A stretch of DNA of 64,000 nt from Halapricum desulfuricans (GTDB lineage: Archaea > Halobacteriota > Halobacteria > Halobacteriales > Haloarculaceae): NCBI RefSeq assembly GCF_017094465.1, contig NZ_CP064791.1, forward strand, positions 2,356,001-2,420,000, written 5' to 3'. Below are positions 2,027-3,145 of this stretch, in pieces; within the stretch, counting starts at the first letter, position 1, and every line of letters starts with the position of its first letter. The notes under the pieces are model-generated. The model did not search any database. It was not told the origin of the DNA and was given only the letters and a program-made list of their open reading frames with translations. The translations under genes and the position numbers were made by a program.

Positions 2027-2470
2027 ATGGGAATCGGCGGCTCGGATATGTACCGACAGCAGATCCTCGATCACTACAAGAATCCCCGCAATTACGGGGA
2101 GATCGAGGACGCGACGTTCACCCACGTCGGGGAGAACCAGTCCTGTGGCGACACGATCAAGATGGACGTGGTGCTCGACGACGACGAGGAGACCATCGAG
2201 GCGGTGGCCTTCCGCGGCGACGGCTGCGCGATCAGCCAGGCCTCGGCCTCGATGCTCAGCGAACGACTGCCGGGCACCTCCATCGAGGAACTGCGGGAGA
2301 TGGACCGGGACGACATCATCGACATGCTCGGGGTCGAGATCTCGCCGATGCGTGTGAAATGCGCCGTGCTGGCCGAGAAAGTCGCTCAGGACGGTGCGGA
2401 GATCTACCTCGGCGAGAAAGATCTTGAGACGACCCAAACCGAGGGCGACGATCCGGACGTCCCCGAGTAA
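2027..2470 (+). CDS. sufU: SufU/IscU-type Fe-S cluster assembly protein
   Basis: A 147-residue SufU/IscU-like protein that accepts sulfur from a cysteine desulfurase during Fe-S cluster assembly. The three expected cysteines are visible: C40 in NQSCGD (with D42), C67 in DGCAIS and C112 in VKCAVL; the SufU-type N-terminus YRQQILDHYKNPRNYG is intact. I chose ATG 2027 because a TATA-like CTTTTGC lies about 30 bases upstream (near 1992); ATG 2048 is a shorter option. The matching desulfurase sufS is about 38 kb away at 39916-41160, so the pair is not an operon here. The last codons and stop are copied downstream (see the repeat entries). Confidence 0.93.
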   Translation: MGIGGSDMYRQQILDHYKNPRNYGEIEDATFTHVGENQSCGDTIKMDVVLDDDEETIEAVAFRGDGCAISQASASMLSERLPGTSIEELREMDRDDIIDMLGVEISPMRVKCAVLAEKVAQDGAEIYLGEKDLETTQTEGDDPDVPE

Positions 2471-2490
2471 TAGGACCGCTGGCGACGCCG
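2411..2490 (+). repeat. Direct repeat copy 1: 3' end of sufU
   Basis: This 80-base stretch includes the last 19 codons of sufU, its stop and 20 bases beyond. It recurs at 2591-2670 with one mismatch (position 2413 C, 2593 T); 2414-2490 and 2594-2670 are identical over 77 bases. Copy spacing is exactly 180 bases. Confidence 0.97.
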
Positions 2491-2517
2491 ACGGCGAGCC
2501 AGCGGGTCGTTTTATAC

Positions 2518-2590
2518 TAAATTTTGCGACGAGTGGTTCCCGCAGTGAGCGGCGTCGCCGCGAGCGAGGAAACCCGAGGAGTGAAATTTA
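2518..2590. repeat. Imperfect palindromic element between the two sufU-tail copies
   Basis: The spacer between the direct repeats has matching ends, TAAATTT at 2518-2524 and AAATTTA at 2584-2590, and a core palindrome GCGGCG-T-CGCCGC. The arms between them are partly complementary (GGTTCCC near the left, GGAAACC near the right). This gives one long imperfect hairpin of about 73 bases, of the size of a REP or MITE-like palindromic unit. No transposase is nearby. It lies between convergent genes, so it could also act as a terminator. Confidence 0.6.
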
Positions 2591-2670
2591 GGTGAGAAAG
2601 ATCTTGAGACGACCCAAACCGAGGGCGACGATCCGGACGTCCCCGAGTAATAGGACCGCTGGCGACGCCG
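2591..2670 (+). repeat. Direct repeat copy 2: detached sufU tail
   Basis: Second copy of the sufU 3' end, lying outside any gene. It has no in-frame connection to sufU because the sufU stop at 2468-2470 precedes it, and it appears non-coding. The near-perfect identity suggests a recent duplication or continuing gene conversion. Confidence 0.95.
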
Positions 2671-2689: not shown

Positions 2690-3070
2690 CTACTCCTCTG
2701 GAGCGGTCACGACCGTCTGTTCGTCCTCACCGTGTTCGATCGCCACGCTGTGGCGGGTGTGGCGGGCGTGGGTCTCTGCCCACCGCTTGGCGGCGCTTTC
2801 TTCGAGACGTTCGACGGTTTCTGGACACTGGCGGCAACTCGCCTGCCAGGTCGCGATCCCGTCGGGGTAATGACCCGTGTGTCGGTGGTGATCCAGCGCG
2901 AACTGCTGAACCGCCTGATTGCCGACGGCCAGCTCCGTCAGTTCGTACTCCAGGTCCCAGGCGCGATCGCAGCGCTCGCAAGTGATCGTCGGCGTGTCGT
3001 CGACCTCGCCCGGCCCGAGAGCGTCGTCGCGTGGCGGTCGGTCGGGGTCGCGTCGGTCTCGGTCGTCCAT
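2690..3070 (-). CDS. Small protein with two CxxC...HxxH zinc-finger-like motifs
   Basis: A 126-residue acidic protein with no family I can name firmly. It has two similar metal-site patterns: C31-x2-C34 followed by HHRHTGH at 61-67, and C79-x2-C82 followed by HARHTRH at 101-107. The repeated HxRHTxH block makes a tandem pair of C2H2-like zinc sites likely. ATG 3070 is preferred to the in-frame GTG at 3073. The N-terminal 25 residues are rich in Asp, Arg and Pro and probably disordered. The protein may bind nucleic acid or protein, but nothing here shows which. Confidence 0.7.
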   Translation of the reverse strand: MDDRDRRDPDRPPRDDALGPGEVDDTPTITCERCDRAWDLEYELTELAVGNQAVQQFALDHHRHTGHYPDGIATWQASCRQCPETVERLEESAAKRWAETHARHTRHSVAIEHGEDEQTVVTAPEE

Positions 3071-3145
3071 CACCCTGCGATTTGGGCTCCCTGAAGAAAG
3101 AGTCTACTGACTATCCGAACCGAAACAGACAGACAACCGACCGTA

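Follow-up and report, generated by a model that had tools for sequence, protein, structure and literature searches.

A palindromic repeat family of haloarchaea with homogenized copies of adjoining gene ends at sufU and other loci

Several described repeats and signals bear some likeness to the sequence analysed here. The PATEs of Haloquadratum are small palindromic repeats, non-coding and scattered through haloarchaeal genomes, which lack inverted ends, make no target duplication and resemble the ends of IS605 (PMC3119063). REP/BIME and RAYT-associated repeats are likewise short intergenic palindromes near gene ends, with imperfect stems and conserved unpaired bases, and MITEs are short, non-coding, inverted-repeat elements with many copies and patchy occupancy. 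Diversity-generating retroelements place a near-repeat of a gene 3′ end beside a hairpin. The attC sites at the ends of integron cassettes, compared by shape alone, are similar folded imperfect palindromes with conserved unpaired bases. Finally, terminators of Haloferax combine a hairpin with a following T5C stretch, and T-tracts can face both genes; in a reporter test in that genus, T5C ended 95% of transcripts (PMC7237163).

The window, a stretch of 64,000 nucleotides from Halapricum desulfuricans (genome G000), contains an arrangement of this general kind behind the sufU gene, with the following features (window coordinates):

2027 to 2470, forward strand: sufU, 147 amino acids, stop codon TAA at 2468-2470 and then TAG; SufU model TIGR01994, PF01592
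2411 to 2490, forward strand: copy A, comprising the sufU tail, the stop and the left arm of the downstream hairpin B2
2474 to 2508, forward strand: hairpin B2 (GACCGCTGGC..GCCAGCGGGTC), terminator-like as judged from its fold and from Haloferax T-stretch terminators (PMC7237163), with TTTT behind it at 2510-2513
2518 to 2590, forward strand: palindrome P (TAAATTT..AAATTTA), 73 nt, matched by R1, the model of the haloarchaeal family
2591 to 2670, forward strand: copy A′, the second copy of the sufU tail, whose first base adjoins the right end of P
2690 to 3073, reverse strand: convergent neighbour gene, 127 amino acids, with its stop 20 bp past A′

The sufU product scores 105 bits against TIGR01994 (cut-off 92.5) and also matches PF01592. 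The convergent neighbour has no Pfam or NCBIfam match, and its orthologue occupies the same place in genomes G001, G002 and G005. A preliminary description of the window had reported an 80 nt direct repeat with one mismatch and a spacing of 180, separated by a 73 nt palindrome with TAAATTT ends. Both were borne out, and the right end of the palindrome proved to be the start of the copy. Copy A consists of the last 19 sense codons of sufU, the stop TAA and 20 more bases; it is 98.8% identical to A′ within the genome, the single difference being a C/T at a third base. The gap between the copies (2491-2590) holds the remainder of hairpin B2 and then P, which is predicted to fold with a minimum free energy of -28.9 kcal/mol (z = -3.5 versus shuffles). 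The covariance model R1 matches at 2506-2595 with 70.5 bits, and a scan with this model found the sufU palindrome to be the sole family member in the window. The proposal that a terminator had been duplicated to protect sufU expression is not supported in that form, as the copy includes the left hairpin arm only, and the T-run and the palindrome each occur once.

The palindrome P is one member of a widespread, hitherto undescribed structured repeat family of salt-loving archaea. In an alignment of 16 palindromes, the outer stem varies with compensation (TTTTTCCGCC/GGCGGAAAAA, TTTTTCGGCC/GGCCGAAAAA, TAAATTT/AAATTTA), the inner stem exhibits a U-A to G-C double change, and the unpaired purines GAG..CGA are conserved. 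Full family members carry, to the left of P, a hairpin B1 (AGCATACG..CGTTTCAC), a variable hairpin B2 and TTTTTC; all ten exact B1 matches in the studied genome lie beside P matches. A second subtype, which the sufU element resembles, begins GGACC and carries TTTTTGGTCCAGC. The covariance model finds 30 matches in the studied genome and 13-41 per genome across the genus. It finds the family in 138 of 146 genomes and all 22 of the 22 genera of the host's taxonomic family, and in 246 of 293 genomes of the order Halobacteriales, where the weakest matches may be chance. There was no match outside this order: in a sample of the phylum, the 24 positives among 197 genomes all belong to it. BLASTN of the region, which the preliminary description had advised, returned related palindromes elsewhere in the same genome and in the genus. 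An exact-word scan of genome contigs gave no match, probably since the copies follow their own species' sequence. Searches of six loci against Rfam gave no matches at E ≤ 1, and the open-licence papers found on haloarchaeal repeats, REPs and MITEs do not describe the family.

The fold of the plus strand is more stable than that of the minus strand in 85 of 105 cases, and GU pairs, counted as an indicator of RNA versus DNA structure, are not enriched (114/2626 on the plus strand, 159/2490 on the minus strand). The presence of T5C, and of T-tracts facing the other gene, makes it likely that the family acts in termination. By analogy with Haloferax, termination is plausible both at the hairpin with its T-run and at the T-tract beside the palindrome, although the sufU element has T4, which is weaker than the T5C of the family. 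The element is probably retained between genes because it terminates transcription in both directions. Some members stand immediately behind tRNA genes (L002, L031, L192, L194, L195, L200, L213), and in several of these the GTGG end of the palindrome, read backwards, supplies a CCAC behind the tRNA.

To look for flank copies, the left flank of each of 77 members in four Halapricum genomes was aligned to the sequence right of P, and a score of at least 40 was taken as a copy. A direct copy was present in 37 of the 77, compared with 58 of 1544 random locus pairs within one genome (3.8%); cross-genome pairs were dropped from this control, being inflated by orthologous loci. No inverted copy was found (0/77), nor any copy when the window of comparison was shifted by 250 bp (0/77). 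In 34 of the 37 cases the copy begins no more than 6 nt from the right-hand end of P; the copies span 23-160 bp and are mostly 94-100% identical. What is copied is usually the upstream gene's tail, stop included, but it sometimes reaches into B1, B2 or a whole further unit. Copying of the right neighbour's tail to the left side was not found. At L188 (G016:C1:1319196-1319788), four 170-bp units repeat the start of a gene that is read leftwards, rather than a tail; therefore the rule concerns the flank and not the mRNA. The preliminary suggestion of a mobile palindromic unit that duplicates its flank thus stands as a pattern at dozens of loci. Mobility is putative, patchy occupancy at orthologous loci being what was observed.

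Counted by eye, roughly 23 loci have the order U-P-U-D, versus about 6 with (U-P)n-D. Among the 40 members that lack a copy, 26 have the end of P no more than 10 nt from the convergent stop, as compared with 1 of the 37 that have one (p = 2e-9). The L087 region (G001:C1:700136-704999) packs five members of the family into 2 kb; three form a tandem series with copies of a single gene tail (..EEAVGD*), and the same palindrome recurs next to differing neighbours, a layout that suggests local spread of palindromes. Other palindromes are cut mid-way and joined to unrelated sequence (L148, L149, L155, L179); these sit at the orthologue of locus 713350 in G001 and G005, at 738348 in G003 and at 2575573 in G001, and such cut elements indicate that palindromes may act as rearrangement breakpoints. 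Right after the stop codon at L148 and L149 (the 713350 orthologue in G001 and G005) there is also a separate short inverted-repeat insertion, TACTGGTGGCTA..TAGC(C)ACCAGTA, which looks like an ordinary MITE.

The arrangement of tail, P and copy recurs at sufU in another Halapricum genome (G005), in Halorientalis persicus and in the uncultured Halobacteriales archaeon QS_9_67_15, the last two being the positives among 80 haloarchaea compared, and each copy matches the sufU of its own genome. This independent recurrence in three other genomes rules out an assembly error as the source of the repeat. Nor do all relatives share the arrangement around an unrelated spacer, the outcome that had been named as fatal to the initial proposal: most are single-tailed, and the spacer is the conserved family. 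A single-copy tail without the palindrome, which the preliminary description advised looking for in close relatives, is found at sufU in G001, where it continues without interruption into the sequence located behind A′ in G005 (the A′-D junction of G005). In G002 the hairpin is present and P is absent. The left side of A′ in the studied genome is 18 nt shorter than in G005.

The association between P and copies is also evident at ileS. Among 51 genomes, a copy is present in 10 of 14 with P and in 2 of 37 without it (p = 4e-6); in one of these two P-less cases (L333), inspection by eye revealed a palindrome split by an insert and missed by the model. In four genera the ileS copy starts at the identical base, which lies some 228 nt ahead of the stop, and its length is about 200-265 bp; copies that are shorter, found elsewhere, resemble P-anchored deletions of the long copy (232 to 38 bp). 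This suggests one old event that was inherited and homogenized, recurrent copying from the same base being less likely. In G099 (L327), two extra copies of the last 232 bp lie behind ileS, each with its own palindrome in front, and the first is 100% identical to the gene.

At nine orthologous loci, A and A′ are 94-100% identical within most genomes (lowest 85.4%), whereas identity between species is mostly 74-93%. The tail copies have therefore evolved in concert, and gene conversion between chromosome copies is very efficient in Haloferax (PMC8223754, PMC11276520). At six loci, the match breaks off before the stop codon is complete, yet at that codon A′ carries a different stop of its own. 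The stops of A and A′ are TAG/TGA at 713350, TGA/TAA at sufU of QS_9, TAG/TGA at sufU of H. persicus, TAA/TAG at ileS of G003, TAG/TGA at ileS of G025 and TAA/TAG at the 2637795 orthologue of G003. Because these distinct stops are kept in A′, the part that resembles the original gene end is A′-D, and the element together with the upstream copy seems to be what was added. P-less relatives with a single-copy A′-D junction occur at loci 2637795 and 1177071 as they do at sufU in G001. Such element-free sites could be excision products of recombination between A and A′, since several retain parts of the element's left end. Reverse frames stop near the A′-D junction at some loci; A′ was rejected as the preserved overlapping end of the convergent gene, as reverse frames do not stop at P where a copy is present.

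On balance, we consider it probable, though by no wide measure, that an old hairpin element inserted at gene ends with a long target duplication, and was then subject to conversion, recombination and erosion. Positions 2474-2590 belong to this dispersed family of structured non-coding elements, made of hairpin B1 and/or B2, a T-run and palindrome P. An ancestral sufU would have received the element in its 3′ end, near the stop codon, with duplication of the adjacent upstream target to give gene-A-[element]-A′-D, the original gene end being kept in A′-D. Gene conversion would then homogenize A and A′ within each lineage, sometimes running on into the element, and recombination between A and A′ would at times cause excision back to A-D or expansion to arrays. 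Slow erosion of A′ by P-anchored deletions would continue until P abuts the next gene's stop codon. We infer this erosion because a copy-less P mostly abuts the convergent stop and a copy-bearing P rarely does; internal deletions of A′ anchored at P occur at sufU in G000 and at ileS. Several observations count against insertion. No insertion event was seen in near-identical strains. Copies often enter B1 or B2, and a clean target duplication then needs added gene conversion. The gene-start copy at L188, the differing palindromes at single loci (521478, 1551925) and the lack of right-neighbour tail copies also fit poorly. Duplications that have a precise end but vary in length from 23 to about 265 bp fit no known transposase, and we know of none whose target duplications are long, differ in length and start from a single precise end.

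The main rival to insertion is template switching in replication or repair, which we regard as unlikely but worth serious weight. A polymerase that stalls at P, B2 or B1 would copy the far-side flank and return, so that A′ lands between P and the next gene, and tandem units would arise by the same slippage. Palindromes are slippage hot spots, A′ tends to end on its right at a hairpin border (ahead of B1, between B1 and B2, or ahead of P), and a copy-less P normally touches the next stop codon, so A′ could be a later addition. However, template switching does not predict the separate stops of A′ at six loci, where the match ends before the stop; the shared start of the ileS copy in four genera indicates that copies are not remade often; and there are neither inverted copies nor copies on the other side. 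Unequal exchange, a plain tandem duplication of tail and element with subsequent loss of the last palindrome, was already disfavoured and is improbable. It has real arrays to its credit (G001 701636-702036; the four 170-bp units of G016; G000 1177071; G099 ileS). At most loci, though, P is missing after the last copy, which would demand a separate precise deletion each time, and adjoining units at 521478 and 1551925 have unrelated palindromes but nearly identical tails. Insertion with duplication is favoured over such tandem duplication because the rightmost copy is usually without P.

Still less credible is retro-insertion, wherein the element RNA would be reverse transcribed into a nicked gene end, target priming giving a precise 3′ end, a truncated 5′ end and long target duplications. 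The precise right end, the variable left end, the long and variable duplications and the strand-specific fold would all agree with it. Against it, the reverse transcriptase domain RVT_1 (PF00078) was found in 0 of 6 genomes of the genus by a search whose control was positive, and gene starts are copied too. We give equally little credence to selection for antisense pairing, by which a convergent mRNA would read through A′ and stop at the T-tract of P, its 3′ UTR pairing with the mRNA tail of the neighbour while gene conversion keeps the match. A convergent neighbour is present at sufU and several other loci, and in several genera A′ is kept at 94-100% over as much as 232 bp, while the length of other spacers is close to zero. 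Passive gene conversion nevertheless accounts for this identity, A′ is lost or eroded in many lineages, and the origin of the copy is left unexplained.

If insertion with duplication is true, a previously unknown integration route acts at archaeal gene ends. Tentatively, the family may represent a new class: a small structured non-coding mobile element of Halobacteriales that would enter gene ends without a reverse transcriptase, duplicate target stretches of tens to over 230 bp that start at a precise end, and leave tails evolving in concert for the age of a family, possibly because they are useful. Whichever mechanism applies, the paired tails offer dozens of naturally occurring reporters for gene conversion across 100-200 bp in polyploid archaea. 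Their long-kept identity points to unusual insertion and maintenance of DNA at gene ends, and tail copies can cause errors in gene annotation, primer design and assembly.

Compared with the systems described above, the element differs from each in part. In contrast to PATEs, its palindrome spans the right end of the element and its flank duplication covers 23 to about 265 bp. The inverted ends of P covary; PATEs are described as having no terminal inverted repeats and near-terminal IS605-like palindromes (PMC3119063). Membership among PATEs was rejected on the direct flank copies at 37 of 77 members. MITE membership was also rejected, as MITE duplications are short and of fixed length, whereas those observed here span 23-160 bp in four genomes and about 200-265 bp at ileS, and are homogenized. 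To our knowledge, REPs cause no flank copies. A diversity-generating retroelement is contradicted by the lack of PF00078 in all six genomes of the genus and by the sufU pair, which differs by one C/T and shows no adenine bias. Unlike the terminators of Haloferax (PMC7237163), the element belongs to a dispersed repeat family with flank duplication. It appears to work like a REP- or MITE-type repeat with a putative terminator function, to which are added long homogenized flank copies that are foreign to those families.
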